A model generated the notes under the pieces. That model worked only from the letters and a program-made list of their open reading frames with translations. It ran no database searches and was not told the DNA's origin. This document shows, piece after piece, positions 25,901 through 64,000 of a stretch of DNA of 64,000 nt. Source of the stretch: Microglena sp. YARC (Eukaryota > Chlorophyta > Chlorophyceae > Chlamydomonadales > Chlamydomonadaceae); NCBI GenBank assembly GCA_022414725.1, contig CM039464.1:15826035-15890034 (forward strand), written 5' to 3'. Made by a program: the position numbers and the translations under genes. How positions within the stretch are numbered: position 1 is the first letter of the stretch; each line of letters opens with the position of its first letter.

Positions 25901-27159
25901 GTGAGGGCCTCCACCCACTTCTTATCATGTCTTGGTATATGGTAGTATTTAAAATCATCATCACAGAAGATGATTTTAACAGAAAATAGGGAATAAAGTG
26001 TCGTTGGCATGTGTAACCAATTGTCTTACCAACGTGGTCTTGTCTAATCATCTTGTGTAACCAACTTTGTTACATGGCTCCAGCCAGCACCTTGGCTTGC
26101 TGTAATGGGAAGTAGAAATTATTACCTGGAAAATGTAGCAATTATCATCTTTTTCAAAACAATCAAAACCTAAGCATTTTGTCAAAACATACTAATGCTG
26201 ACCTTTGTATCCTGCGTTTTTGCCTCAGGCTTGCTGAATGCCACGCTGGCATGTCTAACCTCCTTGCACCAACCACCTTGTATCCTGCCTTTCTGCCCCA
26301 GGCTTGCTGAGTGCCATGCTGGCATGTCTAACCTCCTTGCACCAACCACCTTGTATCCTGCCTTTCTGCCCCAGGCTTGCTGAGTGCCACACTGGCATGT
26401 CTAACCTCCTTGCACCAACCGCCTTAGATCCTGCCTTTCTGCCCCAGGCTTGCTGAGTGCCACGCTGGCATGTCTAACCTCCTTGCACCAACCACCTTGT
26501 ATCCTGTCTTTCTGCCCCAGGCTTGCTGAGTGCCACGAATGCCCCTATGACTATAAAACAGTACAAAGAGCCCAACTGGCGGAGGCCAACCCTGTTATAC
26601 AGGCTGCCAAGTAAGTAGGGAACGGCAGTACGATATCATGTTGTTAGATGATGGCGGCAGTCGGACTAGGATTAAGTTACCATTAATATACAATATCCTA
26701 TGATGCAATTCGTTTTCTACCATACTCACCTTGGGTCAACATCAAATGATATGCTGGTTCCTCCAGTAAGTGCTAAGCTGCATATGCGCAACCACCACAA
26801 CCACCTGTGGCCAGTCACTTTCCTCCACACAACCACCGCCACGCCATTACTCTGGAGTACCAAGGGAAACCGGATATGTATTTGTTCACCCTTGTTAGAG
26901 AACCTCCTGCTAATATGACTTTTCTTTCTGTACACTAGCTTTCCTTTTCGGCTATGATAGCAGCTTCCAGGTGGCTGTCCTGGCTAGATATCCGGCCGAG
27001 ACCTTTCATGCTGTTAAACGAACATTGTATCTATTATGTTTGACTATTGTTCCACGATGTGTAAACTCTTCACACCACACGCATCCACCACATCTGAACC
27101 ACCAACCCACCACACTCATCCCACCACCCCTCTTGCACCTCAGGGTTCAAAAGATCTAG
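22936..27159 (+). CDS. A20/AN1 zinc-finger stress-associated protein
   Basis: Plant and algal stress-associated proteins (SAPs) carry an N-terminal A20 and a C-terminal AN1 zinc finger; A20 fingers bind ubiquitin and several members act in abiotic-stress responses. Exons read as 22936-23013, 23246-23564, 24556-24633, 26521-26610 and 27144-27159. The AN1 finger is textbook: [20 protein letters not shown], then [32 protein letters not shown] and a terminal KVQKI before TAG. Junction phases agree from exon 2 onward (AG+G, AG+G, AA+G). The A20 half is recognisable ([22 protein letters not shown]), but frames shift near 22975, 23000, 23275 and 23340. These are probably consensus indels, since the AN1 half is intact; a pseudogene is the alternative. 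Two MITEs and a 73-bp splice-site array lie in the AN1 introns. The A20 start at 22936 (MSNQNSER) is the most plausible. Confidence 0.85.
24748..24941. mobile_element. MITE family 2, copy B (SAP gene intron)
   Basis: It begins TAGGGACGGGCATATCATAT and ends ATCATATTGCTGCTCCCTG. The flanks (ttcatgtg / cacatgtg) are an imperfect 8-bp duplication. It lies about 115 bp downstream of the first AN1 exon. Confidence 0.75.
24942..26228. other. Long intron of the SAP gene; no exon recognised
   Basis: The sequence is unique to weakly repetitive. There are duplicated phrases near 25180 and 25340 (ttgagg..gatgacagggttgg) and a dispersed element E core near 26070-26105. A 119-codon open frame at 25403-25762 has no recognisable domain and is probably fortuitous. 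Confidence 0.5.
26229..26520 (+). repeat. 73-bp array of the AN1-exon acceptor (exon-edge array)
   Basis: Four exact-length 73-bp units begin at 26229, 26302, 26375 and 26448; the true exon starts at 26521. Every unit carries the polypyrimidine tract tcctgcctttctgccccag and the first exon bases gcttgctgagtgccac, and then diverges from the coding sequence. Only the last acceptor leads into the AN1 codons. Splicing to an earlier one would hit a TGA in the next unit. Confidence 0.95.
26616..26764. mobile_element. MITE family 2, copy C, inserted 5 nt into the splice donor
   Basis: The element TAGGGAACGGCAGTACGATA ... ATGCTGGTTCCTCC starts directly after exon 26521-26610 plus gtaag. The right flank repeats agtaag, so the target duplication copies the 5' splice site. 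Confidence 0.75.
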
Positions 27160-28719
27160 GACTCCTATAACCTTTGACTACGGCGATATCCCCACTATGA
27201 CTCGTGGCTTCTTCTTGCCACCCTGTGGCTGTGTGGCTTGGTAGCACTTGATCCGATGCTGAGCTGCGCTTAGGTTCATGGATGACTTGCTTGGAAGACG
27301 ACGCTACTTAGTACTCAATATAATAATGGTCATTATTATTTTGAGAATTCCTGGTTCCCTGGTTCCTCTCTGAATGTGCCCGTGGCTTGTTGGAGTCAAA
27401 TTCCTGGTTCCCTGCCAGACTCTGAATGTGCCCGTGGCTTGTTGAAGTCTAGTAGGGCAATCGCGAACATCTGGTGTGGACCGCGCACTAGGGCTTCTGA
27501 CTAGATAGAATATGGACTTATCACTGTTAACTTGGGGTTACTTGGCCACACGTTCAACCCCTGCAAAGCAAATCCTGGGAACCTGTGGAGTTTCCAGGCT
27601 GGCAGGCACCAGAGCACGTCCAACCCCTCCGAAGTAAATGCTGGATAGTTGTGGAGCTTCCAGGCTGGAACGCATCAAGACTCCAGGCTGGCAGGCACCA
27701 GAGAACGTCCGACCCCTTGGAAGCAATTGCTGGAACGCTGTGTAGCTTCCAGGAAGAACATATAACTGACTTGTGTCTGAATATAACAGAGGTAACCGCA
27801 TCATAACCACTTTTCTTCTTTGGGCTACTCCTGGCAGTTTCCCGCCAGCCCCATTATCCAGCCACTGGGTCAAACCAAAAGCTTGCAGCTGCATTGGAAT
27901 GCCTGCCATGTCAGCTTTCATATGTACTAGCAAGCTTCAGGTTTGGCCCAAGGACAGGGAAAGGAAGCTGCCTAGAAGCTGCTTCGCGTAGCCTAAAAAA
28001 GAAACAGTGATCGTAGCAGGTGTAGCAGTATCAGGTGGACTACGTCAGACTAGGCGTAATGACAGCATCTGGACAGAATGGGTTAGCAGCATCATAATAT
28101 TTGTAATAGTGGGTGTAAGAATCATATTAGGTGTAAAACTGGGTGTAACAGCATTAGAACAGAATGGGTGTAACAGCATCGTATAAGATTAGGCTTTCTT
28201 AATGCATTTAATGAAGACGGTCACTGTGAGTGTTTGCTACCATGTGTAACATGTTCTTTGAACTTTGTAACGCGGCCCTAGTAAGGCCATCAGCTGCCCT
28301 TACTATTGTCATTTCTTCGGCAGTAACAAAACATTCAGATAATCTCATTCACTGTCGTGCAACGTTGATCCTCTCTCTCTCTCTCTCTCAATGGCTGTCT
28401 TGTTTTTAAGGCACCTGCACGAACCATGAAAACAAATTAGCAACAGAAAGGAAAGAAGGCAAGCAGGAGGAGAAAATGGGCCCGAGCGTTTTGAAGATAT
28501 AAGATATACCATAGGCACCCCAGGGAATGAAAGGAGAGTGTAGACCCTGGTCCAGAGTAAATAAAGAGTGTTCAGCCCCGGACGTGTTGAACGACCCTGC
28601 ATGGAAGGTGATCAAAAAAATCTCGATCCGCGGTGAACCCATGCCACAACAGTCCCATGGAACTTGTTACATACAACTGCTAACATTTGGCTAATTTTTG
28701 CCAAATGTGGTCAGTTCAT
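27160..28719. other. 3' region of the SAP gene and spacer, with short tandem duplications
   Basis: 27345-27445 contains two copies of aattcctggttccctg ... ctgaatgtgcccgtggcttg. 27555-27760 contains three copies of a unit of about 75 bp with gcttccaggctggcaggcac. TGTAA, the usual polyadenylation signal of volvocine algae, occurs near 28236 and 28268 and could end the SAP transcript. A (CT)n tract lies at 28371-28389. No further gene is seen. Confidence 0.45.
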
Positions 28720-28920
28720 TTGGAGTAGGGCCAGGAATCGCCGAGGTATCGGTTTATCCATATACCTGAACTTTGGGTCTTGAACTTGCTTACATGGCTC
28801 CAGCCAGCAATTTGGCTGCTCGCCGTCTTGGGCAGTAACATAATCAGTTCAAAGCAAAGCATTTTTATCAAAATGTACCTGATACAATCTCTTCCTACAA
28901 TCATTGATACAAAAAGGCAT
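28720..28920 (-). mobile_element. Dispersed element E, minus copy
   Basis: The reverse complement aligns with 21810-22030, including tgattgtaggaagagattgt, gcgagcagccaaattgctgg and ctggagccatgtaagcaag. The two copies bracket the SAP gene in opposite orientation. Confidence 0.6.
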
Positions 28921-28989
28921 GGCTATTGACACTATAACTGAGCATCTATCTATGTCAGACGATAGAAACCATAGTTCAACGTACACTAA

Positions 28990-29352
28990 CTACTAAACAA
29001 TAGGGATATTAAATGCATAGCAAGACTACGTCTTCGAGCCCACAACTTAAATGTCGAATCAGTAAGGAGTACCTCTCGATCTGGTAGAATTTGCAGGTGC
29101 TGTGATATGATGGTTGACGGTAGAAGAGTAGTCGAAGATGAAATGCATTTAATATCAGAATGTCCGTTCTACGCTGAGGATAGAAAAATTGTTTTTGAGA
29201 AAATGAACATTGAAACTGAATTGGTGGTTACAAACTCCAGTATGAAGCTGGTTATGGATCCCGATTCCTTTGAAGGAAGTACGGTACTTAATACCATTTA
29301 TAAAAAATGCGATAATAATCGCACAATTAAATTATCATCCCAGCTGAGATGA
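28990..29352 (+). pseudogene. 5'-truncated non-LTR retrotransposon: C-terminal zinc knuckle of the reverse transcriptase
   Basis: The frame is open from just after a TAA at 28987 to TGA at 29350. It reads IARLRLRAHNLNVES, then GRICRCCDMMVDGRR, EDEMHLISECPFYAEDRK and a short tail ending SSQLR. The C-x2-C ... H-x4-C spacing following an RLR..HNL stretch is typical of the zinc-binding region found after reverse transcriptase in LINE ORF2 proteins. The catalytic reverse transcriptase and endonuclease are absent, consistent with 5' truncation on insertion. Its 3' UTR continues to about 29530, and the same tail recurs elsewhere in the window. Confidence 0.65.
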
Positions 29353-29394
29353 TGACTAAATAATATTGTAGAATTAAATTATCACTGTAGCACG

Positions 29395-29532
29395 AACCCA
29401 GGGCCTCCGTTGGTAAAACGATTGTTAGAGGTTCAGTTCACCAGTGCTTTTTCTTTTTAAGCCCTTCCTATTACGGTTGGGCAAGTACCTTTAGCCTTTT
29501 TGGCCTACCCCTGGACTGTAACATAGACACAC
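29395..29532 (+). mobile_element. LINE 3' UTR and terminus
   Basis: Key words in order are ggtaaaacgattgtt, gttcagttcaccagtgcttt, taagcccttcct, gggcaagtacctttagcc and ggcctacccctggactgtaa, then catagacacacaca. The reverse complement of 61070-61200 matches it end to end, and shorter copies lie at 9945, 30935, 31236 and 49990. Confidence 0.7.
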
Positions 29533-30300: not shown

Positions 30301-30383
30301 TGGTGGTTGCCCCCAGTGAAAGCAAACGGGCTGGCCCCCTCAACCTCCCGCCTCGTAATACGGCGCACTATTTATATATTTAT
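30301..30383 (+). mobile_element. Short retroposon, family A
   Basis: The core ggttgcccccagtgaaagca through cctcgtaatacggc is followed by actatttatatatttat. It is followed directly by the family D fragment. Confidence 0.7.
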
Positions 30384-30505
30384 CAGCGCGCTAATGGTGA
30401 CTACTGCTAGTTCCGGCTTACGCAGTGGTGTCCTTCACTTCAGGTCCTGAGAGTGGCACATTACTCGAATGTAACAATTTAAATTTAAATTTCAATATCA
30501 GCGCG
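30384..30505 (+). mobile_element. Short retroposon, family D, with (AATTT)n tail
   Basis: atggtgactactgctagttc, cggcttacgcagtggtgtcc and gagagtggcacattactcga, then atgtaac and an aatttaaattt tail. The same body occurs in plus sense at 36178-36310 with an (aatttc)n tail. Confidence 0.7.
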
Positions 30506-30534
30506 CTACTTGCAACCACCGAATCCACCATCAC

Positions 30535-30625
30535 TGGGTATCACAAAAGGGGATTTGGAATTGGGAAACTGTGAGCAGCCCAGAGATGACTAAAAAACAT
30601 GTAACAATCAAATCCATCATTCTAC
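30535..30625 (+). mobile_element. Short retroposon, family C fragment
   Basis: gggtatcacaaaaggggatt, ttggaattgggaaactgtga and gcagcccagagatgac, with an end in acatgtaacaatca, correspond to 9138-9225 and 9810-9880. Confidence 0.55.
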
Positions 30626-30640
30626 CTTAACCTTCCCCCG

Positions 30641-31010: not shown

Positions 31011-31026
31011 CCTCTGTGATAGGCCT

Positions 31027-31221: not shown

Positions 31222-31235
31222 ATAGGCCTATGTAT

Positions 31236-31479: not shown

Positions 31480-31660
31480 AAGATGCATGTGCATGTGTAC
31501 TGGATGAGTGCAGTACATGAGTGTACTGGGAGTGTGATGCTTTGGTGCATAATATGAAACATTATCCATGTGCATATGTACAGCATGCACTGGATGAGTG
31601 CAGTACATACTTGCAGTACATGAGTGGACTGGGAGAGTGATACTTTGGTGTGTAACATGA
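31480..31660. repeat. Direct duplication of about 100-115 bp
   Basis: atgtgtactggatgagtgca ... gtactgggagtgtgatgctt at 31490-31552 is repeated at 31590-31655. Confidence 0.6.
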
Positions 31661-32940
31661 CAGGTCAGCGCCTGATTGTCTCAGTCATCTTGTTGAAGAA
31701 GGCGTAATAGCATGGCCTGCCTCCACTGACTGATCATGACAGATCAGCACCTGTTGTCCCAGTCATCTTGTTGGAGGAGGAATAAGAGCATGGCCTGCCT
31801 CCACTCACTGCTCATCACTAAATCATGGCTTCTGATCAGCTTATCACGATAACGTCAACATTATTGGCTGTGTCATCATACCACCATCTAAAGGTCAGCA
31901 CCTTCTTGTCCCAATCATCTTGTTGATGATAGGGTTGGAGCATGGCCTGCCTCTACTGACTGATCATCACAAACTCATGGCTGCTGATCAGCTAATCACG
32001 ATTGGGTCAACATGATCAGCTGATCACGATAACGTCAAGATGATTGGCTGCGTCATCATACCACCATCGCACAGGTCAGCGGCTGCTTGTCCCAATCATC
32101 TTGTTGAGGAAAGAGTTGGAGCAGGGCCTGCCTCCACTGACTGACCATCACTAAATCATAGCACATGATCAGCTTATCACGATAACGTCAACATGATCAG
32201 CTTATCACCATAAGTCAGCATGGTCAGCTTATCACGACAACGCCAACATGATTGGCTGCATCATCATTCGACCATTGTACAGGTCAGCGCCTGCTTGCCC
32301 CAATCATCTTGTTGAGGAAAGAGTTGGAGCAGGGCCTGCCTCCACTGACTGACCATCACTTAATCATAGCACATGATCAGCTTATCACGATAACGTCAAC
32401 ATGATCAGCTTATCACGATAACGTCAACATGATCAGCTTATCACGATAACGTCAACATGATCAGCTTATCACGATAACGTCAACATGATCAGCATATCAC
32501 AATAAGTCAGCATGATCAGCTAATCACGACAACGTCAACATGATTGGCTGCGTCATCATACGACCATTGTACATGCCAGCGCCTGCTTGTCCCAATCATC
32601 TTGTTGAGGAAAGAGTTGGGGCAGGGCCTGCTGCGCAGTGGGTCTCAACAAGTGTGCGCAAAATGGCGCTGCCACGCGCGCTTTGTAGTGCCCTGACATG
32701 CTCATTAGCTCGATCGGGTCATCATACCAGCTTCGTACCGGGCAGCACTTATTCTCCTCATCTGGCTTGTTGAATATATAGTAGGTGCACGGCCTGCCTC
32801 CACTGACTGATCATCACAAAATCATGGCTTCTGATCAGCTTAGCACGATCGGGTCATCGTACCAGCTTCGTACCGGGCAGCACTTATTCTCCTCATCTGG
32901 CTTGTTGAATATTGAGTAGGTGCAGGGCCTGCCTCCACAC
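31661..32940. repeat. Higher-order array with nested 28-bp ATCAGCTTATCACGATAACG unit
   Basis: A large unit (gcgcctgcttgtcccaatca ... ttgttgaggaaagagttgga ... gcctgcctccactgactga) recurs about seven times. Between 32160 and 32540 the nested word atgatcagcttatcacgata + acgtcaac is repeated many times. A MITE fragment interrupts it at 32631-32695. Confidence 0.85.
32631..32695. mobile_element. hAT-like MITE, family 1, terminal fragment
   Basis: ctgcgcagtgggtctcaaca ... gcgctttgtagtgccctg corresponds to one end of copy B (31155-31221). The rest of the element is absent. Confidence 0.7.
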
Positions 32941-32984
32941 AGGGTCCAAATGTTCTCACACTGGGCATTTTGCCTCATCACAAT

Positions 32985-33400
32985 GCAGATCTACGTGGGC
33001 AAGTGAGGGGCATTTTTCAGGTGAGGCTGGGTGAGGGACATATTGAAAGAGACGCACCCAGCCTCACATTTTTCAGGTGAGGCTGGGTGAGGGACAATGC
33101 AGATCTACGTGGGCAGGTGAGGGGCATTTTGCATTGTGCTCGTGTGTGGGTGTGGGTGTGTGGGTGGGTGGGGGGTGTATGTGAAGGTGAGGGATGTTTT
33201 GTGGGTGAGTCTGGGTGAGGGACTTTGTTTTTTATGTGGGCAGGTGAGGAACATTTTTGCACTGTGCTCGTGTGTGTGTGTGTGGGGGGGGGGGGGTTGG
33301 GTTGGGGTTGGGGGTTGGGGGTTGGGGGATTGGGGGAATTTTGCTCTCATGTGTGTGGGTGGGTGAGGGGGCAGGAGAGACTGGGTGAGGGGATTTTATT
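32985..33400. repeat. GTGAGGGACATTTTGCA-type repeat with GT/GGGTT tracts
   Basis: Units share gtgggcaggtgaggggcatt, ttgca(t/c)tgtgctcgtgtgtg and ctgggtgaggga, separated by (GTGG)n and (GGGTT)n runs. Four to five degenerate copies are present. Confidence 0.7.
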
Positions 33401-34497: not shown

Positions 34498-34681
34498 TAG
34501 GGCTCGGTAAATCATATGATGCTGGCCGAAGGAGAGTATGATATTGTACAAAGTGCATCATATGATGTTGTATATAAATGGTAACTTTGGCCTAGACAGA
34601 CTGTTGGCATCATATGAATATATGATGACACTATATCATATGATGACACGATATCATACGATATCATAATGCCGCTCCCTA
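34498..34681. mobile_element. MITE family 2, copy D
   Basis: It starts TAGGGCTCGGTAAATCATAT and ends TATCATAATGCCGCTCCCTA, with the family interior (ggtaactttggcctagacag, actgttggcatcatatga). No clean target duplication is seen. Confidence 0.75.
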
Positions 34682-34739: not shown

Positions 34740-35410
34740 ACATATTGCCCTGAATTCCTGATACCAAAACCTGTTTGTGGCCCCTCAGCAGACACACCAG
34801 TAGTACACACACCAACACTGATACCATGAGAACTGCACCTCCCCAGTCTTCACTTCTCATAAACCCACACTGCACCAACTGCCCAATATCCCTGTTACCA
34901 CCTCTTTGCGCCCCCTCAATCGACACACCAGTAGTGCACACACCAACACTGCTTCCAGAAGAATTGCATCTCCCCAGTCTTCACTTCTCATAAACCCACA
35001 CTGCACAAATTGCCCTATATTCCTGATACCACCACCTGTTTGTGGCCCCTCACCAGACATACCAGTATTACACACACCAACGCTGCTACAACTATACTCA
35101 ACCATTCCGCATCTCTCCAGTCTTCACTTATCATAAACCACACTGCACAAATTGCCCTATATTCCTGCTACCTCCACCTGTTTGCGCCCCCTTAGCAGAC
35201 ACACCAGTAGTACACACACCAACACTACTACCATGAGAACTGCATCTCCCCAATCTTCACTTCTCATAAATCCACACAGCACCAACTGCCCTAAATTCCT
35301 GATACTACCACCTGTTTGCGCCCCTCAGCAGACATACCAGTATTACACACACCAACACTGCTACAGTAATACCTGCAACTCCCCACTTGAAAACAATCCA
35401 TGCTGCACAA
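34740..35410. repeat. About 130-bp tandem array, 5 copies
   Basis: Units contain tgtttg(t/c)g(g)cccctcagcagaca, caccagtagtacacacacca, gagaactgcatctccccagt and cttcacttctcataaaccca. It lies downstream of the last recognised pherophorin exon (minus sense) and may sit in its next intron. No coding exon is recognised in it. Confidence 0.85.
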
Positions 35411-35439
35411 GTTGCCCTAAATTCCTGCTCCTCTCCTCT

Positions 35440-35590
35440 CTGGACAAGGGCTCCCTGGACCCCCTGGGATCCCTGGACCCCTGGATAAGGACCCCCTGGA
35501 CCCCCTGGATAAGGTCCCCTGGACCCCCTGGGACCCCTGGACCCCCTGGATAAGGTCCCCTGGACCCACTAGTCTCCTGGACACCCTGGA
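35440..35590. repeat. CCCCTGGAT short minisatellite
   Basis: The units are ggaccccctgga and gataaggtcccct. It abuts the donor side of the 35602-35754 pherophorin exon. Confidence 0.8.
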
Positions 35591-35601
35591 CAAGAACCTA
35601 C

Positions 35602-35892
35602 CCGTGTGCCAGCAGCATTGACCATAGTGTGACCAATTTGTGTGATCTTGAGAGACACATAAGGCTGGAGCTGGAAGAAAGGCGCCTTAGGCATATCATC
35701 AACTGTGGTGTACGCTACAGAGCCCGCGCATGCGCCATCAACCATGAACTCGATCTGGGGTGAATGAAGGAGGGGCATGAATGATGAGTTAGGTTTGTAA
35801 CAATTGAGCTGGAAAAAAGGCGCCTTGAGCATATCATCGACGGTGGTGTATGCTACAGAGCCCACGCAGGCACCATCAACCATGAACTCGAT
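35602..35892 (-). repeat. Duplicated pherophorin exon (IEFMVDGAC...)
   Basis: The exon 35602-35754 has an upstream partial copy at 35806-35892, with the same acceptor (ctgggg side) and the codons for [20 protein letters not shown] and APFFQL. Only the 35602 copy runs on to LKITQIGH and a gtaggt donor, so the other copy is an exon-edge duplicate. Confidence 0.85.
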
Positions 35893-51373: not shown

Positions 51374-54300
51374 CTAGCTTCCCCCTACCTCGGATGGAAG
51401 GGTCTGAGGGGTTTCATCAGGGGCTTGGGCACTGGCTGTAGCGGGTGGGGGAGGGGGAGGGGAGGGGGCTGCATCTGCAGGTTTGGCTTGGCTTGATTGG
51501 GGGCTTGCCTCTGCTGGCTTGGCTTGATTGACCATGGTGGGCTCTGGAATGGGAGGGGGGCTGACCTCTGCAGGGTTGGCTTGGCTTGATTGGGGGCTGG
51601 CCTCTGCTGGCTTGGCTTGATTGATCATGGTGGGCTCTGGAATGGGAGGGGGGCTGACCTCTGCAGGGTTGGCTTGGCTTGATTGGGGGCTGGCCTCTGC
51701 TAGCTTGGCTTGATTGACCATGGTGGGCTCTGGAATGGGAGGGGGGCTGACCTCTGCAGGGTTGGCTTGGCTTGATTGGGGTCTGGCCTCTGCTGGCTTG
51801 GCTTGATTGACTATGGTGGCTTCTGGAATGGGAGGGGGGCTGACCTCTGCAGGGTTGACTTGGCTTGATTGGGGTCTGGCCTCTGCTGGCTTGGCTTGAT
51901 TGACTATGGTGGGCTCTGGAATGGGAGGGGGGCTGACCTCTGCAGGGTTGGCTTGGCTTGATTGGGGTCTGGCCTCTGCTGGCTTGGCTTGATTGACTAC
52001 GGTGGGCTGTGGGAGGGGAGGAGGCCTCCAACCCACATGGCCGCCAGCTGGCAGCATGCTTGTGAGGGGGGTCCTGGCAACAGAAGTGACCAGAGGTGTG
52101 GCAAGGGTGCTGGAGCCAGCACCACTGGGGCCAGCACCTGTGACAGCACCAGTGGGCCCGTCTGATCCCATTGGGCCGGCTGCACTGACACTTGCACTAG
52201 GAGACATGGTGGTGGGCTCCGAGGCACTCAGACGGCCCCACTGGCTGTCGGCTAGATCAACCAGGCCGCCCCCTAGGTGGGGCTGTTGCTGCTGTTGCGG
52301 CGGCGGTGGCATGCCCATCATTGGGGGGCTGGGGCCACTGGGGGGCAGCTGTGCCATGCCCGTCATGGGAGGGCTGTGGCCACTAGGTGGATGGAAGGCC
52401 GGCTGGCTAGAGGCCGAGGAGCCAGGGGTGCCTGGCCCCTCATAACCTGATTGTGGTCCCAAGCCAACTGAGGTCGAACGAGGGTATCCAGTGGAGATCT
52501 GGGGAAGCCCTGAGGTTGGGCCCACGCCGATTGCGGATTCACTCCCCTGGGGAGGGATGAAGGGAAGATGGCTGGCACCTCCCAGCTGCTGACCTGTTTG
52601 AACTGTGTGGGCTGGTCGAGTAACCCCTTGCTCTAGGTCGCGTGCTGAGCTGGCAGTAGCATCTGGGTGGGCTGCGCTACCAGAGGGGCCTGCCGCTGAC
52701 CTGGCACCAGCAAATGAGCTGTAGAGGTATGGCGAGGGGATGCCGGACATTACGACAGGGTCCACTGTGGCAGTACTGGTGAATGCACTGGAGGGACTTG
52801 TGGTCCCGTATTGTGGCTGGAGCCAGGGCTTGGTGCGTTGCGAGATTTGGGCCTCACTTGGGGGTCTGGATGGATCTGGAGGTGTATCTCGAATGTCCGT
52901 CTGCGAGGGAGGGGAGTGGTTTGTGTGTGTGTGTGGGGGGGGGTGTTAGTGGGGATTGGGTGTGGGTGTTTGGGATTGGGTTTGGGTTGGGATTGGGTTG
53001 GGATTGGGTTTGGGTTTAGGTGGGATTGGTTTGGGATTGGGTGTTTAAGTGTGTGTTTATGGAGACTGGTGTGTGTTTTTTATGGTGTTCTGCACTGATG
53101 GGGAGTGGTGCTAGAGTGAGGTGAAGTGTGTTTGTGGGGATTGGTGTGTGGGGTGTGTGTTTGTGTGTGGAAGGACCAGTGCCCTGGCAGGCATCCATAG
53201 TGTGTGAGTGTGAACAAAGTGACTGGACAACAGAAATCCATTTAGAGTACTCACCCTGGCCTTATAGGGACAGGGTGCGTGGGACAGGGCATAGACGAAA
53301 GCAAAAACAAGAGTACTCACGCCTGACGTTATATAGAGACAGGGTGCGTGGGACAGGGAATAGAAAAAGCGAAACAAAGAGTTCTCACCCTGGCATTTAG
53401 GGTGTGTGGGTCCCCTTGGAACACCATCTCCATCACTTCATGAAAATAGTTCATGAAAACACTTCATGAAAACACTTCATGAAATGAGGTGAGGTAGGTA
53501 AGGCCCCCACTCGTATACAAGCTTAGCCACGGTTAAGCTAGCGTTCCTGCCTCCCTTATAAACAAATGTTAGGGTTAAAGACAAAGAGAATAGACAAAAG
53601 CAGAACAAGAGTACTCACCCCTATCAACTGTAGTTGAACAGGATCTGTTATTCAGTTGGTACACTCTTCTCTTTAAGAGCACTCACCCTAACATAAGGGG
53701 GGGTGATCCCCTTTGACACCATCTCCATCACCTCATGGAAGGAGGCGGGGTTGGTGGGGTCGCCACCTTTCTACAAGCTTACTTACAGTTGAGCAAGCGT
53801 TACTGCTTACCTTCTTACAGAACGTTAGGGGCAAAGATAGACAGAATAGACAAAAGCGAAACAAAAGTACTCACCCTGACGTTAGGGGGGGTGATCCCCT
53901 TGGACACCATTTCCATCACCTCATGAAAGGAGGTGGGGTAGGTGGGGTCGCCACCCTTCTGCAAGCTCACGGTAGAGCTAGCAGTGCTGCCCTGCCCCTG
54001 CAAGCCTGGCGCCTGGGCCTTGGACGAGGCCCCCCCTAGGTAGCCCCCCGGCGGCTGCGGGATGATTGTACCACTGTACGGGTCGCCCCCGTAGCCCCCT
54101 GTCAAGGAAACGATGATTGGCTTGGTTTGATGACTCAATGAGTGGCACGCAGGTGACAGAGGGAAGCACACATGGAGCAAGACACTGATACTTGAACAAA
54201 GCAACACAGGTAGCAAGGCACAGGTAGAAGGGCACACGCACTTGCACATAGTGATATAGGTAGCATGGCAATGACGCTTGCACGTTGTTGCTTGCACATA

Positions 54301-57300
54301 GCGACACAGGGAAGGACAGAGGGAGCAGGGGCACGAACGCCTGCTGATTGCCGCTTGTACACAGTGATATTGGGAGCAGGGTACTGATGCTTGAACACAG
54401 CAACGCAGGTAGCAAGGCACAGGTAGAAGGACACAAGCCCTTGCACATAGTCACTTGCACACAGTCATACAGGGAGCAGGACACTGATACTTGAACACAG
54501 CAACACAGGTAGCAAGGCACAGGTCGAAGGACACAAGCGCTTGCACGTAGTCACTTGCACACAATCATATAGGGAGCAGGACACTGATACTTGAGCACAG
54601 CAACACAGGTAGAAGGGCACAGGTAGAAGGACAAAAACGCTTGCACATATTCACTTGCACAAAATCATACAGGGAGCAGGACACTGATACTTGAACACAG
54701 CAACACAGGTTGCAAGGCACAGGTCGAAGGACACAAGCGCTTGCACGTAGTCACTTGCACACAGTGGTATAGGTAGCAGGACACTGACCCTTACACATTG
54801 TCGCTTGCACATTGTCACTTGCACATAGCTACTCAGGCAAGCACACGCTTGATCAATGTAGCTTGCGCACCACAAACCAATGCACCAAGGTATGTGCAAT
54901 CAACGCACAAGCGCTTGCACGTAGCGACACAGAGAGCAAGGCAAAAAACGCTTGCACATAGTGGAATACAAGCACAGGCCTGGTCCTACGTAGCTTGCGC
55001 ACCACCAACCAATGCACCAAGGTATGCAGAATCAACTCATCAACGCTTGCACATAGCGACACAGGGAGCAGGGCACAGGTGGAAGGGCATAACCGCTTGC
55101 ACGTTGGCGCTTGCACATAGTGGCAACAGGCAAGCACACACTTGGTCGCACGTAGCTTGCGCACCACCATCCAATGCATCAAGCTATTTGCAATAAACAC
55201 ACCAACGCTTGCACATAGCGACACAGGGAGCTAGGCAAAACAAGCTTGCACGTTGTCGCTTGCACATAGTGGAACAGGCAAGCACACACTTGGTCGCACG
55301 TAGCTTGCGCACCACCATCCAATGCACCAAGCCATTTGCAATCAACACACCAACGCTTGCACATAGCGACACAGGGAGCAAGGCATAACACGCTTGCACG
55401 TTGTCGCTTGTACACAGTGACAACAGGCAAGCACACGCTTGGTCGCACGTAGCTTGCGCACCACCATCCAATGCACCAAGCTATTTGCAATAAACACACC
55501 AACGCTTGCACATAGCGACACAGGGAGCAAGGCAAAACAAGCTTGCACGTTGTCGCTTGCACATAGTGGAACAGGCAAGCACACGCTTGCTCTCAAGTAG
55601 CTTGCGCACCACCAACCAATGCACCAAGGTATGTGCAATCAACGCGCCAGCGTTTGCACATAGCGACACAGGGGAAGGCACAAGGAGCAAGGCACAACCG
55701 CTTGCACATAGTCGCTTGCGTGCAGCTACCAAGGGAAGGGCATGCTAGGTCGCATATATCTTGCGCATCACCAACCAATGCACCAAGCTATATGCAATCA
55801 ATGCACTAAAGCTTGCACATTGTTGCTGGCACACAGCGACTTAGGGGCGGACACGCTTGATCGCACATAGCCTGCGCGCCACCAACCAATGCACCAAGGT
55901 ATGTGCAATCAACGCACCAACGCTTGCACATAGCGACACAGGGGAAGGTTCAGGGAGCAAGGCACAACCGCTTGCACATAGTCACTTGCACATAGCTACT
56001 CAGGCAAGCACACGCTTGGTCAATGTAGTTTGCGCACCACCGACCAATGCACCAAGGTATGTGCAATCAACACACTAACGCTGTCACATAGCGACATAGG
56101 CAACAGGGCACTTGTGGAAGGGCACAGACACTTGCACGTTGTCGCTTGCACATAGCGACTCAGGCAAGCACACGCTTGGTCGATGTAGCTTGTGCACCAC
56201 TAACCAATGCACCACGGTATGTGCAACCAACGCACATCGTGACACAGGGACGGACACAGGGAGAAAGGCACAAGACGCTTGCAATAATCTGTTACAAGGG
56301 ATATCGCGCGCACGTGTGCGGATGATAACACTAGTCTGCATTTCATAAACCACACTTACCCCCTCTCCCACCCTCACACCCCCACATAACTATATCACTA
56401 TAGGTTTATATCGCGCGCACGTACACGGATGATACAACTAGTCTGCAAATCATATACCGCACCCACACACACTGCCTCAACATCAACACCCCCATATGGG
56501 GAACTATATCATATGATATCATACAAACTGCATCATATGATATTGTATAACCAGGGAACGGCAATATGATATCGTATGATATCATATCATCATATGATAT
56601 CATATGATGCCAGAAGTCTGACTAGGTTAAAGTTACCATTTATATACAATATAATATGATGCAGTCTGTATGATATCATATTATATCATACCCGCCTTCG
56701 GTCTACACCATATGATATGCCTGTCCCTATATACCACACCAAGACACACCTATACAACGGAAACATAACGCAATAACACATGCATAAACAAACACACAGC
56801 ACACACATATGCACGCACGCACGCCCACACACACACACACACAAATGCATGTGTATTAGATTACCCCAATATCATTGGAGGTTGGCCCAAATGCAAGCAA
56901 ACGGGGTGGCCCCCTCAACCCCCCACACACACTCACACAAATGCTTGCGTGTATCAGATTACCCCAAATAGCATTGGTTAGCCCCAGTGCAAGCAAACGG
57001 GCTGGCCCCCTCAACCTCACGCCTCGTAATACCATACGAAGCGTAAAAGCAATACATGCATATACGGATAAGCATACCTGTATTATTTATTTATTTTAGT
57101 CAACCATATAGTCACATGAACGTACTCTATCTTGTAATTAAAATACTCCTTTCATGGTCTATCTATGCGCACACACCTAGACTACTAACCCCACCGCCCC
57201 CAATGTGCTAGATCATCAACCTGAGTCCCTTAGTCTATCTACACGCGCACACACCTATACAACTACCCCCACCACCCCCACAGTGCTAGATCATCAACCT

Positions 57301-60300
57301 GAGTCCCTTAGTCTATCTACACGCGCACACACCTAAACAACTAACCCCACCGCCCTCACAGTGCTGGCTAATCAACCTGAGTAATTGTAATCCGGGTAAC
57401 TGGAGGAGTGAGTCCCGTTGGCCCCTGCCCAAGCTGGGACAGGTGATTGCTGCGGCTGCATACTTGTCTTTGCGTTTGTGGCATTGAGTCGGCTGAGCGC
57501 GTCTCTCACATCGTTCAACACGTTGGTGCTTCCGCTTTGCTGCTCACGCTGGAGCCTGCGGTGGCGTGGGTGTGGGTGTATGGGTTGGTGTGGGAGTGGT
57601 GGTGAGTGTGGGTGTGAGTGTGGGTGTGAGTGTGAGTGTGGGTGTGGGTGCGTTTGTGGCATTCAGCCGGCTGAGCGCGTCTCTCACATCTTTCAACACG
57701 TTGGTGCTTCCGATTGGCTGCTCACGCTGGAGCCTGCGGTGGTGTGGGTGTGGGTGTGGGTGTATGGGTGGGTGTGGGAGTGGTGGTGAGTGTGGGTGTG
57801 AGTGTGGGTGCGTTTGTGGCATTCAGCCGGCTGAGCACGTCTCTCACATCGTTCAACACGTTGGTGCTTCCGATTTGCTGCTCACGATGGAGCCTGCGGT
57901 GGCGGCGGTGGCTGTGGTGGTGGTGGTGGTGGTGGGAGTAGGTGAGGGTGTGGAAGTGGGTTCGTTTGTGGCACTGAGTTGGCTGAGCACGTTCCTCACA
58001 TCGTTCAAAACGCTGGTGCTTCCAATTTGCTGCTCACGCTGGAGCCTGCCGTGGCGGCAGCGGCTGTGGTGGTGGTGGTGGTGGGAGTAGGTGAGGGTGT
58101 GGGAGTGGGTTCGTTTGTGGCATTGAGTATGCTGGGTGCATCCCTCATATTGTTCAACACGACAGTGCCTCCTATTTGCTGCTCACGCTGGAGCCTGCGT
58201 GGTGTGGGTGTGAGTGTGGGTGGGGTTGTGGTGTTGGTGGTGGTACGTGAGTAAAACAATGAAGCACCGCCTTTGCGTTAGTGGCATTGAGTCGGCTGAG
58301 GGCGTCTCACATCGTTCAACACAATGGAGCCTGCGGTGGTGGTGGTGTGGGAGTGGTGGTAGGTGTGAGTAATGGTGGGGTTGTGGTGGTGGTGGTAAGT
58401 GAGGACAAGACTCTAAAACACTGCACGATCCAGCTGAGCGTGTCCATCACATCATTCAACATGATGGTTCTTCCTATTTGCTGCTCACGCTGGAGCCTGC
58501 AGTGGAGGTGGTGGTGGTGGTGGTGGAAGTAGGTGTGGGTGTGGGAGTGGGTGTGCTTGTGGCATTGAGTAGGCTGGGTGCGTCCCTCACATCGCTTCAC
58601 ACATTGGTGCTTCCTGTTTGCTGCTCACGCTGGAGCCTGCAGTGGTGGTGGTGTGGGTGTATGGGTGGGTGTGGGTGTGGGTGTGGGTGTGGGTGTGGGA
58701 GAGGGTGTGGGTGTGGGAGTGAGTGTGAGTGTGGGTGCGGGAGTGGTGGTAGGTGTAGGTGTGGGTGTGGGTGTGGGTTTAGGTGTGAGTGTGAGTGTGG
58801 GTGTCAAAGTGGTGGTAGGTGTAGGTGTGGGTGTGGGTTTAGGTGTGAGTGTGAGTGTGAGTGTGGGTGTGGGAGTGGTGGTACGTGTAGGTGTGGGTGT
58901 GGGTTTAGGTGTGAGTGTGGGTGTGGGTGTGGGTGTGGGAGAGGGTGTGGGTGTGGGAGTGAGTGTGAGTGTGGGTGTGGGAGTGGTGGTAGGTGTAGGT
59001 GTGGGTGTGGGTTTAGGTGTGAGTGTGAGTGTGAGTGTGGGTGTGGGAGTGGTGGTAGGTGTAGGTGTGGGTGTGGGTTTAGGTGTGAGTGTGGGTGTGG
59101 GTTTAGGTGTGAGTGTGAGTGTGAGTGTGGGTGTGAAAGTGTGTAAGTGTAGGTGTGGTGTGGGTGTGGGTTTAGGTGTGAGTGTGAGTGTGAGTGTGGG
59201 TGTGGGAGTGGTGGTACGTGTAGGTGTGGGTGTGGGTTTAGGTGTGAGTGTGAGTGTGGGTGTGGGAGTGGTGGTAGGTGTAGGTGTGGGTTTAGGTGTG
59301 AGTGTGAGTGTGGTGTGGGATGTTGGTGGTGTAGGTAAGGTGTGGGTGTGGGTTTGGTGTGAGTGTGATGAGTGGGGTGTGGGAGTGGTGGTAGGTGTAG
59401 GTGTGGTGTGGGTTTAGTGTGAGTGTGAGTGTGAGTGTGGTGTGGGTTTAGGTGTGAGTGTGATGTGGGTGTGAAAGTTGGTGGTAGGTGTAGGTGTGGG
59501 TGTGGGTTTAGGTGTGAGTGTGAGTGTGGGTGTGGAAGTGGTGGTACGTGTAGGTGTGGGTGTGGGTTTAGGTGTGAGTGTGAGTGTGGGTGTGGGAGTG
59601 GTGGTAGGTGTAGGTGTGGGGTGTGGGTTTAGGTGTGAGGGTGTGGGAGTGGGTGCGTCTAAGGCATTGAGTCAGCTGAGCGCATCCATCAATGACTCAA
59701 ACAACTCAGAATATTTGTGGTTTGAATGATTTAAAAAACGGCAGCTTCCAGGCAGCTTCCAAGTCCCCCAACATGAAAGACCACCCACACCATCTTGTTC
59801 ATGGATTAAACAAAATCAGGAGGAGGGTGTGAATGTGAGTGTGGTTGTGGTGATCAACAAATGGCATGCATGTTAATGAGGACTTGGAAGCTGCCTGGAA
59901 GCTGCCCTCTAATAAATCATACAAACCACAAACCTTCTAAGTTTGTTTAAATCCATGGTTTAAACAAACTCTGAAGGTTTGTGGTTTGTATGATTTATTA
60001 TAGGGCAACTTCCAGGCAGCTTCCAAAACCTCCAACATGCAAGACAGCCACCCACGCCATCATGTAAATGGATTTAAAACAATCTCAGGAGGTGGGTGTG
60101 AGTGTGAGTTGGAAGCTGCCTGGAAGCTGCCCTCTGATAAATCATACAAAACACAAACCTTCATGTTCATGGATTGTAAAAAACTCAGGAGGTGGGTGTG
60201 AGTGTGAGTGTGGTTGTGGTGGCCAACAAATGTCGTGCATGTTGATGAGGACTTGGAAGCTGCCTGGAAGCTGCCCTCTTATAAATCATACAAAACCACA

Positions 60301-62024
60301 AATCTTCATGTTCATGGATTAAAACAAAACTCAGGAGGTGGGTGTGAGTGTGAGTGTGGTGGCCAACAAATGTCGTGCATGTTGATGAGGACTTGGAAGC
60401 TGCCTGGAAGCTGCCCTCTAATAAATCGTACAAAACACAAACCATCTGAGTTGTTTTAAACCCATGTTTTGTTTTTAAAACCCATGATTTTTCCACCGCC
60501 TAAACAAGACACGCCGTTGCAGCAGATAATTCTTTGTCCCCCCCACTCCTGTTTTTGTACTACAGGTTAACTCACATGTCACTGGTCTGTGACTGCTCCT
60601 TCAACAGTAGTGTGGGGGTGTGGGGGCAGGCACATTATGTTCAGGAGCACATCCCCTACTGTGCTCCCCTCTCCCCCCCCACTACTGTTTTTGTACTACA
60701 GGCTCATTCACATGTCACTGGTCTGTGACTGCTCCCTCATCATCTCCACCGCCTCAGCCAGACACGCCATTGCAGCAGACAATTATTTCTGCATGTTCAA
60801 CAGCGCCTCCTTCGCCTCCCCTCCCCCCCCCCCCTTCCCCACTGCTGTTTTTGTACTACCGGTTCACTTACATGTCACTGGTCTGTGACTGTTCTTTTAT
60901 CCTCTCCACCACCTCAGCTAGACACGCCGTCGCAGCAGACAATTATTTCTGCCCCCCCCACTACTGTTTTTGCACTACAGGTTCACTTACACGTCACTGG
61001 TCTGTGACTGCTCCTTCAACAGTAGTGTGGGGGGAGGGAGGAGGCACAGTAGTATGTATGTATGTTTGTTTCAGTCCAGGGGTAGGCCAAATAGGCTCAA
61101 GGGACTAGCCTAACCGTGTAGGAAGGGCTTTAAAAGAAAAATCACTGATGAACTGAAACCCCAAACAATCGTTTTACCGACGGGCGCCCTAAGTTTGTGC
61201 TTCAGTGATAATTTGATTGTACAATACAAGAGGGGAGGGGGAGGGACATTAGGAGCATATCCCCTACTGTGCCCCCACCCACCACCCCCCCCACACACCC
61301 TCACTCCTGTTTTGTACTACAGGTTCACTTACATGTCACTGGTCTGCTACTGTTCCTTCATCAGTAGTGTGGGGGTGTGGGGGAGGCACATTATGGACAG
61401 GAGCACATCCCTACTGTGCTACCCCCCCCCCCCCCCCCCCCTCTCCACTCCTGTTTTTGTATAACAGGTTCACTTACATGTCACTGGTCTGTGACTGCTC
61501 CCTCAACATTTCCACCGCCTCAGCAAGACACGCCATTGCAGCAGACATTATTACTGCATGTTCAACAGCGCGCCTTCTTCGCCTCCTTGCCTCCTCCCCC
61601 CCCCCCCCCCCCCCCCCCACTACTATTTTTGTACCAAAGGCTCACTCACATGTTACTGGTCTGTGACTGCTCCATCATCATCTCGACCGCCTCAGCTAGA
61701 CACGCCGTCGCAGCAGACAATTATTTCTGCCCCCCCCCCCACAACTGTTTTGTACAACAGGTTCACTTACATGTCACTGGTCTGCGACTGCTCCCTCATC
61801 ATTTCCACCGCCTCAGCCAGACACGCCGCCGCAGCAGACAATTCTTTTTGCATGTTCAACAGAGCCTCCTTCGCCTCCCTTGCCTCCTCCTCTGCTCTCC
61901 TCCGATCCGCCTCCTTCTTCTGGGCCGCCCCGTTCCAAGCCTCGTACATGGAGTACGCATAGGGGAACAGGAGGTGGCGGATTGTGTAGGCACTAGCTGC
62001 CACAACACTCACGCCAAGGGCCAC
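51374..62024 (-). CDS. PEX14: PEX14, peroxisomal import docking protein (5' end outside window)
   Basis: PEX14 sits in the peroxisomal membrane and docks PEX5/PEX7-cargo complexes. Four exons are in the window: 61771-62024, 57377-57555, 53875-54098 and 51374-52900. Phases fit at every junction (AT+G, G+GG, 0+0). The first reads [20 protein letters not shown] (membrane segment), then an Ala/Glu-rich coiled coil through [20 protein letters not shown] to SQTSD. The second continues [24 protein letters not shown]. The third ends [19 protein letters not shown] and the fourth begins [26 protein letters not shown]. This is the conserved C-terminal KPWE-type domain of plant PEX14, with Leu instead of Glu/Asp after KPW. 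A long disordered tail with six 31-residue repeats ends at TAG 51374-51376. The N-terminal PEX5-binding domain must lie right of 64000. A related KPWE protein is the alternative. Confidence 0.78.
51430..52010 (-). repeat. 93-bp coding repeat in the PEX14 tail (31 residues, 6 copies)
   Basis: Each unit encodes [19 protein letters not shown] then [10 protein letters not shown](I/M). The 93-bp length keeps the frame. Copies are nearly identical, so expansion is recent. This is the only clearly coding array of the window with a clean frame. Confidence 0.92.
53240..53875 (-). repeat. Exon-edge array: 3' end of the PEX14 KPWE-domain exon
   Basis: Besides the functional exon end at 53875, copies of its 3' edge and donor occur at about 53690-53765 ([20 protein letters not shown] still readable) and 53390-53460 (decayed). 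Two minimal donor copies lie near 53255 and 53315. Each copy is followed by gagtactcac and a gacagaatagaca.aag stretch. Confidence 0.9.
54120..56330. repeat. CTTGCACATAGCGACACAGG array in PEX14 intron
   Basis: 54150-54840 repeats a unit of about 125 bp with cacttgcacacagtcataca and gggagcaggacactgatact. 54840-56260 repeats a unit of about 165-190 bp with gcttgcgcaccaccaaccaa, tgcaccaaggtatgtgcaat and cgcttgcacatagcgacaca. No exon pieces are recognised in it. Confidence 0.88.
56552..56729. mobile_element. MITE family 2, copy F
   Basis: It runs from AGGGAACGGCAATATGATAT to CATATGATATGCCTGTCCCTA. A partial second copy precedes it (56505-56550). The interior words gactaggttaaagttaccat match the other copies. 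Confidence 0.75.
56871..57032 (+). mobile_element. Two tandem family A retroposon fragments
   Basis: ggttggcccaaatgcaagca (about 56880) and ggttagccccagtgcaagca (about 56976) each start a family A core. The preceding attaccccaa(a)tatcattgg is also duplicated, so the pair is a local tandem duplication of about 100 bp. Confidence 0.7.
57165..57377 (-). repeat. Exon-edge array at the 3' side of the PEX14 LQREQQ exon
   Basis: Three units of about 75 bp carry ctagatcatcaacctgagtc and ttagtctatctacacgcgca. The words atcaacctgagt are the minus-strand splice donor of exon 57377-57555 with its last exon bases, so this array repeats that junction. Confidence 0.75.
57555..58655 (-). repeat. Exon-edge array: about 8 copies of the PEX14 LQREQQ exon start
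   Basis: The acceptor phrase ttgctgctcacgctggagcc followed by tgc(g/a)gtgg recurs at about 57715, 57880, 58028, 58180, 58478 and 58615 in addition to the true exon at 57555, with a partial one near 58325. Each copy holds codons for [28 protein letters not shown]. Only the 57377-57555 copy continues to a full exon. The intervening sequence is (GTGTGG)n and (GGT)n. Confidence 0.92.
58655..59655. repeat. GTGTGGGTGTGAGTG minisatellite
   Basis: Units are built of gtgggtgtgggtttaggtgt, gagtgtgagtgtgggtgtgg and gagtggtggtaggtgtaggt. Long Val/Gly or Cys/Gly plus-strand frames are artefacts of the repeat. Confidence 0.92.
59656..60500. repeat. GGAAGCTGCCTGGAAGCTGCC modules in both orientations
   Basis: Five modules of about 120-140 bp carry ggaagctgcctggaagctgc, ataaatcatacaaa(a)ccacaaa and aactcaggaggtgggtgtga. 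Those at about 59740 and 60005 are inverted relative to 59886, 60112, 60255 and 60395. Confidence 0.8.
59884..60026. repeat. Near-perfect palindrome, 68-bp arms, 7-bp spacer
   Basis: Arm 59884-59951 (ttggaagctgcctggaagct ... gtttgtttaaa) pairs with 59959-60026 (tttaaacaaac ... aggcagcttccaa) around the spacer tccatgg. Only a few mismatches occur, chiefly around aggg/ccct and cttctaag. Confidence 0.88.
60560..61771 (-). repeat. Exon-edge array: copies of the PEX14 coiled-coil exon 3' end
   Basis: The donor phrase cacttacatgtcactggtct (or near variant) followed by gtgactgctcc recurs at about 60570, 60708, 60865, 60985, 61325, 61468 and 61645 before the true exon end at 61771. Longer copies keep codons for [16 protein letters not shown] and REQSQTSD. 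Each is preceded by poly-C plus actactgtttttgtac. Confidence 0.92.
61070..61205 (-). mobile_element. LINE 3'-tail fragment, minus
   Basis: The reverse complement reads ggtaaaacgattgtttgggg, tttcagttcatcagtgattt, taaagcccttcc and cttgagcctatttggcctac, then ccctggac. It aligns with 29405-29515 end to end. Confidence 0.7.
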
Positions 62025-64000
62025 CTGATGGGGTGGTATGTGTGTGAGTAATTGGCTAGCCCTGGACTGTAACATACATGAAGGTACATGGAGTACGAGT
62101 AGGGGAACAGGAGGTGGCGGAGGGTGTAGGCACTAGCTGCCACAACACTCACGCCAAGGGCCACCTGTTGGGGAGGTATGTGTGTTTCAGTAATTGGTTA
62201 ACCCTGGGCTGAAACATACATGATAACATTTACATATACATGAAGGTACATGGAGTCTGCGTAGGGGAACAGGAGGTGGCAGAGGGTGTAGGCTCTAGCT
62301 GCCATAACACTCACGCCAAGGGCCACCAGATGGGGTGGTATGTGTGTGTAAGAGCAATTTGGCTAACCTGGACTGAAATGTACATGATCACATGTACATA
62401 TACATGAAGGTACATGGAGTACGCATAGGGGATCAGGAGGTGGCGGAGGGTGTAGGCACTAGCTGCCACAACACTCATGCCTAGGGCCACCTGTTGGGGA
62501 CGTATGTGTGTTTGAGAAATTGTTTAACCCTGGACTGTGACATACATGAAGGTACATGGAGTACGCATAGGAGAACAGGAGGTGGCGAATTGTGTAGGCA
62601 CTAGCTGCCACAACACTCACAGCAAGGGCCACCTGGTGGTGTGGTGCGTGTGTGAGCAATTAGCTAACCCTGGACTGTAACATACATGATCATATTTACG
62701 TACACATGGAGGTGCATGGAGTCTGCGTAGGGGAACATGGAGTCTGCGTAGGGAAAACAGGTGGCGGTGGGTGTAGGCACTAGCTGCAACGACGCTCACG
62801 CCAAGGGCCACGAGATGGGATGGTATGTGTGTATGAGCAATTGGCTAACCCTGGACTGGAACATACATGATCACATTTACATATACATAAAGGAACATGG
62901 AGTCTGCGTAGGGGAACATGAGGTGGCGGTGGGTGCAAGCACTAGCTGCCACAACACTCACGCAAAGGGCCACCTGGTGGGGTGCTGCGTGTATATGAGT
63001 GATTGGCCAAACCTGGACTGTAACATGCATGATCACATGTACATATACAAGAAGGTGCATGGAGTATGCGTAGGGGAACATGAGGTGGCGGAGGGTGCAG
63101 GCACTAGCTGCAGCAACACTCACGCCAAGGGCCACCATATGGGGTGGTGCGTGTGTGTCAGAAATTGGCTAAACCTGGTCTGTAACATGCATGATCCTTT
63201 TTACATATGCATGTAGGTACATGGAGTATGCGTAGGGGAACATGAGGTGGCGGTGGGTGCAGGCACTAGCTGCAGCAACACTCACGCAAAGGGCCACCTG
63301 GTGGGGTGGTGCGTGTGTATGAGCAATTGGCTAACCCTGGACTGTAACATGCATGATCACATGTACATATACATGAAGGTGCATGGAGTATGCGTAGGGG
63401 AACATGAGGTGGCGGAGGGTGCAGGCACTAGCTGCAGCAACACTCACGCCAAGGGCCACCATATGGGGTGGTGCGTGTGTGTCAGAAATTGGCTAAACCT
63501 GGTCTGTAACATGCATGATCCTTTTTACATATGCATGTAGGTACATGGAGTATGCGTAGGGGAACATGAGGTGGCAGAGGGTGCAGGCACTAGCTGCCAC
63601 AACACTCACGCAAAGGGCCACCTGATGGAATGGTATGTGTGTGCGAATAATTGGCTAACCCTGGACTGGAACATACATGATCACATGTACATTTACATAC
63701 ATGTATAAGAGGGTATATAGAGTATTCATAGGGGAACACCAGGTGGTGGAGGTGTAGGCACTAGCTGCCACAACACTCACGCCAAGGGCCATGTGATGGG
63801 GTGGTGCGTGTGTATGAATAACTGGCCAACCCTGGACTGTAACATTTATTTTAACATGTACACATACATGAAGGTGCATGGAGTCAGCGTAGGGGACCAC
63901 GAGGTGGCGGAGGGTGCAGGCACTAGCTGCCACAAGACTCACGCCAAGGGCCATGTGATGGGGTGGTGCGTGTGTATGAATAACTGGCCAACCCTGGACT
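62024..64000 (-). repeat. Exon-edge array: about 13 copies of the PEX14 membrane-segment exon start
   Basis: Copies of the exon start (codons for [23 protein letters not shown]) lie with first bases at 62024, 62164, 62326, 62490, 62632, 62811, 62973, 63135, 63297, 63459, 63621, about 63792 and 63954. Spacing is mostly 162 bp. Only the 62024 copy runs into the full coiled-coil exon. The acceptor AG is kept at 62024, 62164, 62490, 62632, 62973, 63297 and 63621 and changed in the others. Each intron part contains ccctggactgtaacatacat, the LINE terminus. The array continues beyond the window. Confidence 0.93.

Follow-up and report, generated by a model that had tools for sequence, protein, structure and literature searches.

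Half of the modelled exon edges in three neighbouring genes of the green alga Microglena sp. YARC recur, splice site included, in the adjoining introns. The genes, here called PEX14, pherophorin and SAP, lie in a stretch of 64,000 nucleotides (GenBank assembly GCA_022414725.1, contig CM039464.1, positions 15,826,035 to 15,890,034 of the forward strand), hereafter the window. Nearby copies running across the exon–intron junction are present at 13 of 26 edges, affecting both acceptors (7 of 14) and donors (6 of 12), as an initial annotation of this DNA had proposed for the introns of all three genes. We interpret the arrays as junction-spanning minisatellites, a structure already termed "mirage" in amphioxus, which would have arisen by ordinary local tandem duplication blind to exon borders and subsequently filtered by selection; we give this reading a probability of about 0.7. 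The arrays thus represent a known kind of structure, seen here at high density and in a new lineage, while a new system and a targeting of junctions are unsupported by this window.

Junction-spanning copies at exon edges

A copy was scored as spanning if it aligned by BLAST with E ≤ 0.01, extended 5 nt or more to either side of the junction, and lay within 3 kb of it. When the required overlap is raised to 10, 15, or 20 nt, 12, 11, and 10 edges are still hit; the other 13 of the 26 edges have no spanning copy by the 5-nt test. Numbering the PEX14 exons X1 to X4 and the pherophorin exons E1 to E8, copies are found at the acceptors of X1, X2, E3, E5, E7, E8, and the SAP exon at 26521, and at the donors of X1, X2, X3, E2, E3, and E6. 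Both ends are amplified in X1 and E3 and, marginally, in X2, whose donor array holds 6 exon nt. The exon part of the copies is shortest at the X2 donor (6 nt) and longest at the X1 donor (120 nt), identity to the true stretch is 70–96%, and E values go down to 1e-111. It is the copy nearest the exon that continues into the complete exon, in agreement with the initial annotation.

Exon edges were placed by hand using splice motifs, open frames, phase matching, and four public predicted proteins, P0001, P0002, P0007, and P0008, which we take to be from the same organism because their gene numbers (16985, 16986, 16989, and 16990) are consecutive or nearly so. The edge set was chosen with the interval list of the initial annotation known, and E2 was modelled with its array in view. 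The count comprises modelled exons only, that is, three neighbouring genes of one haplotype. Twelve of the 13 intervals in that list are recovered as exon-edge cases; below, the first range given for an array is ours and the second, after a slash, is the listed one. Copies of a splice site other than the true one are called decoys.

The PEX14 arrays all lie on the minus strand. X1 (61771-62024), a complete exon ending in QTSDM, is flanked by arrays at both edges. Its acceptor array (61944-64000 / 62024-64000) repeats a unit of ~162 bp with 12 decoys, 6 of them with AG, and reaches the end of the window, while its donor array (60492-61890 / 60560-61771) holds seven decoys, all with GT. At X2 (57377-57555), the acceptor array (57471-58739 / 57555-58655) contributes seven decoys, all with AG and with up to 85 exon nt, and the donor array (57157-57382 / 57165-57377) two decoys in a 78-bp unit. 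The donor of X3 (53875-54098) is accompanied by three diverged decoys at 53686, 53388, and 53320 with up to 96 exon nt (53320-53970 / 53240-53875). X4 (51377-52900), the last modelled PEX14 exon, carries an exon-internal tandem repeat at 51460-52021; its period of 93 bp, or 31 codons, keeps the frame, and the repeat is open throughout.

The pherophorin gene is likewise on the minus strand. E3 (41262-41443; FPDCAC...KIELPM), which is frameshifted relative to P0007, has arrays at both edges: a 123-bp acceptor unit (41392-42040 / 41352-41934) with five decoys, four with AG and a degraded fifth at 42011, comprising up to 52 exon nt, and a 196-bp donor duplication (40966-41365 / 41066-41337) with one decoy at 41065 and 104 exon nt. 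The donor array of E6 (37472-37913) lies at 36712-37563 / 36781-37566; its unit of ~151 bp yields four decoys with 89–92 exon nt, and CCCTAAA runs separate the copies. Smaller cases are the 73-bp donor duplication of E2 (42178-42271) at 42051-42221 / 42045-42271, with one full decoy at 42104 and, by reading, a truncated copy; the acceptor copies of E5 (38711-39437) at 39361-40003 / 39437-40010, with one spanning decoy at 39616 and exon-only word matches at 39953-40003; and the 138-bp acceptor duplication of E7 (35602-35754) at 35668-35913 / 35602-35892, with one decoy at 35892. The acceptor of E8 (32838-32990), the last pherophorin exon, is a case absent from the initial list (32980-33133): the copy at 33094-33133 is 95% identical and places a decoy at 33104 with 11 exon nt. 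The one listed interval that did not stand is 47290-47554, next to the donor of E1 (47554-47631). The array abutting this edge (47175-47555) repeats the donor and the intron with only ~2 exon nt, gives no BLAST copy with 5 exon nt, and fails the exon-edge test. E4 (40112-40714) is the remaining modelled exon of the gene.

On the plus strand, the acceptor array of the SAP exon 26521-26610 (26205-26537 / 26229-26520) is built of a 73-bp unit with four decoys, all with AG, and up to 17 exon nt; the true acceptor is at 26520/26521. P0008 joins this exon directly to the AN1 zinc-finger exon (24556-24633), neither edge of which has an array.

Two observations concern the surroundings of the pherophorin exons. 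The window contains 20 occurrences of CCCTAAA and 10 of TTTAGGG, where base composition predicts 2.9 per strand, and 16 of these 30 telomere-like heptamers lie in the introns beside E6 and E4 (36583-37468, 40745-40772); the clusters are possibly interstitial telomere-like repeats from break repair. Further, an array that follows the last pherophorin exon on its downstream side (31656-32930) may be built partly of this exon's own interior, as the tail of P0007 matches 32990-32838 and again 32777-32712.

Properties of the decoy splice sites

That the introns hold many decoy splice sites, another point of the initial annotation, is borne out: 42 of 49 aligned decoys keep the canonical GT or AG, in a sample that favours intact junctions because it consists of copies alignable by BLAST across the junction. 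Six of the seven losses fall in the X1 acceptor array, where AG and non-AG copies roughly alternate, and one at E3. That half of the X1 acceptor decoys have lost AG counts in favour of the position-blind reading given below. Three X1 donor decoys are identical to the 25-nt true-donor query; hence, the local motif cannot separate decoy from true site.

Of the 47 decoys assessed, 46 would disrupt the reading frame if simply used in place of the true splice site. All 18 donor decoys would introduce a stop, as would 25 of the 29 acceptor decoys, and three further acceptor decoys would shift the frame without a stop. The only assessed decoy that keeps the frame is that of E7 at 35892, which would add an open insert of 138 nt. 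These counts include decoys lacking GT or AG and leave out E5 and E8, whose phase is not sure, and the stops may partly be sequence errors.

Compared with the true copy, identity amounts to 0.896 for splice cores, 0.901 for exon parts, and 0.876 for intron parts of the decoys, and no extra conservation of the cores over their flanks was found. Divergence by codon position in four arrays displayed neither a consistent pattern nor a consistent third-position excess; on this inconsistency, coding constraint on the decoys was rejected.

Probable origin by position-blind duplication filtered by selection

In the mechanism we favour, a stretch of ~60–200 bp would initially be duplicated in tandem, and slippage or unequal exchange would later lengthen the array, each round adding decoys. 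Where this stretch includes an exon edge, the working splice site would be kept by the copy still joined to the whole exon, and the inner copies would become intron. Junction-spanning arrays would be tolerated because the outer copy leaves exon and splice site intact, while duplications within exons would last only if in frame, as exemplified by the 93-bp repeat of PEX14 X4. Splicing in vivo would then pick the outer copy, the last of the acceptors or the first of the donors, and misspliced products would be lost. A possible hint of break repair comes from the CCCTAAA runs that separate copies in the E6 array.

Duplication is rampant in the introns of these genes, and the edges are spanned at or below the intron rate, which supports a process blind to position. 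By a criterion of ≥ 75% identity over 40 nt, 54.7% of intron positions are locally duplicated outside microsatellites. When 40-nt windows were scored for local duplication at the same identity, 11 of 26 edges were duplicated, against 11.9 ± 2.2 when the edges were rotated inside their own genes and 13.1 ± 2.3 at random intron positions. The BLAST test gave the same picture, with 13 of 26 edges spanned (50%) versus 435 of 600 random intron positions (72.5%), 256 of 600 in exon interiors, and 282 of 600 in other sequence. The duplicated fraction is 0.42–0.65 in intron bins up to the edge and 0.35–0.44 in the first 80 exon nt; deeper in the exon it is 0.00–0.09 at 80–180 nt, with 0.29 for the final bin (n = 7), and 7 to 13 exon halves contribute beyond 80 nt. 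An exon depth of copies that varies from 6 to 120 nt is as expected of random breakpoints. Moreover, joins that skip the decoys yield complete or nearly complete pherophorin domains, an open PEX14, and a SAP join matching P0008. A clear tendency towards junctions, which the initial annotation suggested as a genome-wide habit, is thus not supported within the window: coverage by arrays is no higher at junctions than in intron sequence, and a marginal excess appears under one stricter null.

Several results weigh against a purely position-blind origin. Coverage is a generous null, since only the terminal unit of an array can contain an edge. In stricter nulls, arrays were collapsed and one unit of each was placed at random in its intron, which rests on assumed ancestral intron lengths. 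For arrays called by the tandem repeat finder TRF, 7 of 32 straddle an edge at periods of at least 20 (5.9 expected) and 7 of 46 at periods of at least 10 (6.1 expected); TRF ends the X1 and X2 acceptor arrays before they reach the junctions that BLAST alignments span, so that a fair count is 9 versus 5.9. Among BLAST clusters, 11 of 27 straddle an edge where 7.0 ± 2.0 are expected (P = 0.04), and the fair count is 12, as the cluster filter dropped E5. A mild edge preference of up to about 1.7-fold is therefore possible, as is a spurious excess from wrong assumptions on ancestral intron length. Additionally, spanning copies are common in exon interiors, a class that takes in proline-rich tracts and the 93-bp repeat in coding sequence, so that the case for selection against arrays in exons is not a sharp one. 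In the four arrays tested, copies differ less from one another in the part derived from the exon than in the part derived from the intron (for E6, 0.05–0.11 versus 0.30), which plain neutrality does not predict, and all 12 X1 acceptor decoys are stop-free over at least 70 nt. Finally, the evidence base is one organism with three genes, 26 edges, and manual models.

Alternative explanations

The strongest competitor holds that junctions are preferred targets, with a process tied to transcription or splicing, such as R-loops, breaks at exon borders, or filler repair, duplicating exon edges. The collapsed-intron counts described above speak for it, as do the amplification of X1 and E3 at both edges, joined by X2 with its short donor part, and the telomere-like runs in the E6 spacers, which break repair might leave. 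However, the position controls run within the window, a check that the initial annotation had suggested genome-wide, are divided: coverage and rotation give no excess, nor do the TRF arrays as computed, and only the collapsed BLAST null does. Half of the edges lack a copy, the nulls lean on assumed intron lengths, and the models were made knowing the earlier list. We consider this explanation unlikely.

About as unlikely is the proposal that splicing remains accurate despite up to a dozen near-identical sites, with some arrays, for example the six AG-bearing PEX14 copies, forming a reservoir of cassette exons that gives a variable number of membrane segments. Under this proposal, the many near-identical splice sites at an edge imply that the choice must rest on a non-local cue, such as exon definition or the order of transcription. 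A related explanation, which takes some of the copies for genuine cassette exons in alternative use that give proteins of variable length, such as a PEX14 with a repeated hydrophobic segment, appears still more doubtful. It is favoured by P0001, which strings two decoy copies in frame before the true exon, by all six AG-bearing X1 decoys, each of which has an in-frame, stop-free stretch of 87 or 93 nt ending at a GTA donor, and by the open E7 decoy, which is included in P0007. Yet P0001 and P0002 look like gene-finder output that splits PEX14 and takes few of the many copies, and the PEX14-like protein P0006 has the segment once, as judged by eye. The lack of extra core conservation, the absence of a consistent third-position excess, and the frame disruption by nearly all decoys used as plain splice sites argue in the same direction.

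An assembly artefact, with arrays made from collapsed or mis-joined reads, is very improbable. The assembly is imperfect, as frameshifts relative to P0007 and P0008 and an N gap at 18001-18990 show, but the copies are 70–96% identical to the true stretch, and AG and non-AG copies roughly alternate along the PEX14 array. Furthermore, residues specific to two decoy copies recur exactly in P0001, which stems from a gene set that differs elsewhere from this version of the sequence. That the genes are decaying pseudogenes and the arrays unconstrained debris is scarcely credible: the pherophorin and SAP exons do contain frameshifts, but P0007 (at E3) and P0008 are intact at these sites and X1 to X4 of PEX14 are open.

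An origin from a mobile element or introner was rejected, since no dispersed copies of the units were found in the window beyond low-complexity or telomere-like pieces. Of 12 units compared with the whole window, eight have no copy at a distance above 3 kb; the far matches of the other four, among the matches listed, are low-complexity stretches or one telomere-like 20-mer. This accords with the initial annotation, in which no single mobile insertion was held to explain the arrays.

Relation to known boundary-spanning repeats

The initial annotation knew of no named system with this behaviour, but the structure has a name. In amphioxus, "mirages" are tandem repeats spanning exon–intron boundaries, described for Adh3 and the globins BflGb6 and BflGb9, and later for PGBD5 and troponin C (PMC3087553, PMC3902484). 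The name is credited there to a 2002 paper. Both 5′ and 3′ boundaries are affected, and regular splicing is reported to be undisturbed. The algal arrays share with them the minisatellite-like repeats across boundaries of both types, decoy AG or GT in many copies, and one authentic copy joined to the exon; the amphioxus units measure 10 to 160 bp. The host, in contrast, is a green alga rather than a chordate, with up to 12 decoys per edge and half of the edges in three neighbouring genes affected. A boundary-spanning unit (13 of 26 edges), both boundary types, and AG or GT in many but not all copies (42 of 49) are found here. On these structural features we class the arrays as putative mirages; the pherophorin domains obtained with decoys skipped, together with P0008, lend indirect support to undisturbed splicing. 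A limited look at titles and the beginnings of abstracts in open-licence papers found no earlier report of mirages in algae.

Two other systems resemble the arrays in part. Human genes in segmental duplications contain internal tandem repeats at exon–intron boundaries (PMC2812944), minisatellites that cross the boundary and alter gene structure. These vary between paralogs, are supported by transcripts, and produce new introns, whereas the algal arrays lie in introns taken as old. In potato, an intron was made by a boundary-spanning duplication (PMC4974935), a tandem duplication across an intron–exon boundary that likewise brings its own splice signals. The algal decoys instead enlarge introns, and the in-frame E7 decoy is, of the assessed cases, the closest to a new intron.

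Mirages would thereby extend from lancelets to green algae. If transcripts confirm use of the outer copy, this alga would provide a natural experiment on how the spliceosome chooses among near-identical sites. It would also supply intermediate stages in the growth of introns and in their gain through tandem duplication. For annotators, the arrays are a warning: the public gene models of this genome took decoys as coding exons and split PEX14 (51377-64000) into at least two genes, gene16985 and gene16986.

Gene models and sequence quality

The exons of PEX14, X1 to X4, join into an open frame over 2181 nt. In-frame joins are also formed by E1 with E2, by the end of E6 with E7, and by the two SAP exons (AN1 to 26521, as in P0008). 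Within the window, the first and last parts of E6 are in different frames, which may reflect two exons with a hidden intron or a sequence error in the proline-rich tract; its counted edges (37914 and 37472) hold either way, and two further edges might be missing. The minus strand matches the pherophorin family PF12499. Two decoy-skipped composites assembled by hand cover positions 1-148 and 2-148 of the 148 positions of this model; the first relies on P0007 where two short stretches are damaged, and the second has a shortened proline-rich linker. A Pfam scan of the six frames of 1-15002 gave no match at E 0.1, and a plasmid search likewise returned no match. In 35001-47999, two of the three minus frames were scanned, and exons in stretches outside the scans do not enter the edge count. 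The SAP edges counted are 23246, 24556, 24633, 26521, and 26610, with the A20 region taken as 23246-23345 in the rotation and coverage controls and as 23246-23560 in the unit-placement nulls.

Against the PEX14 query, P0001 and P0002 are 99% and 100% identical over 28% and 19% of its length. P0007 is 86% identical over 55% of the composite pherophorin query, and P0008, an AN1 zinc finger protein, 100% over 45%. P0006 is a distant match to the PEX14 query (25% identity over 76%), which also matched a PEX14 protein of a Dunaliella species, most probably D. tertiolecta. This match and the pherophorin gene point to the Chlamydomonadales. The window carries indels at 41330-41450 (E3) and 22936-23560 (SAP), sites at which P0007 and P0008, respectively, are intact. 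These shifts are thus most likely sequence errors, and the assembly appears under-polished here. Base-level errors of this kind leave the existence of 70–200 bp units untouched.

Other repeats in the window

By eye, a dispersed element with many ATCATATGATATC palindromes recurs at ~24745-24920, 26632-26760, 34510-34670, 42360-42550, and 56500-56720; it may be a DNA transposon of the non-autonomous type. A second dispersed fragment (GCAAGCAAACGGGCTGGCC...CGTAATA), also recognized by eye, is present on both strands at ~30310-30370, 36100-36180, 43890-43950, and 56880-57030. Finally, a very regular minisatellite at 5366-6864 consists of 51 copies of a 29-bp unit with 93% matches.

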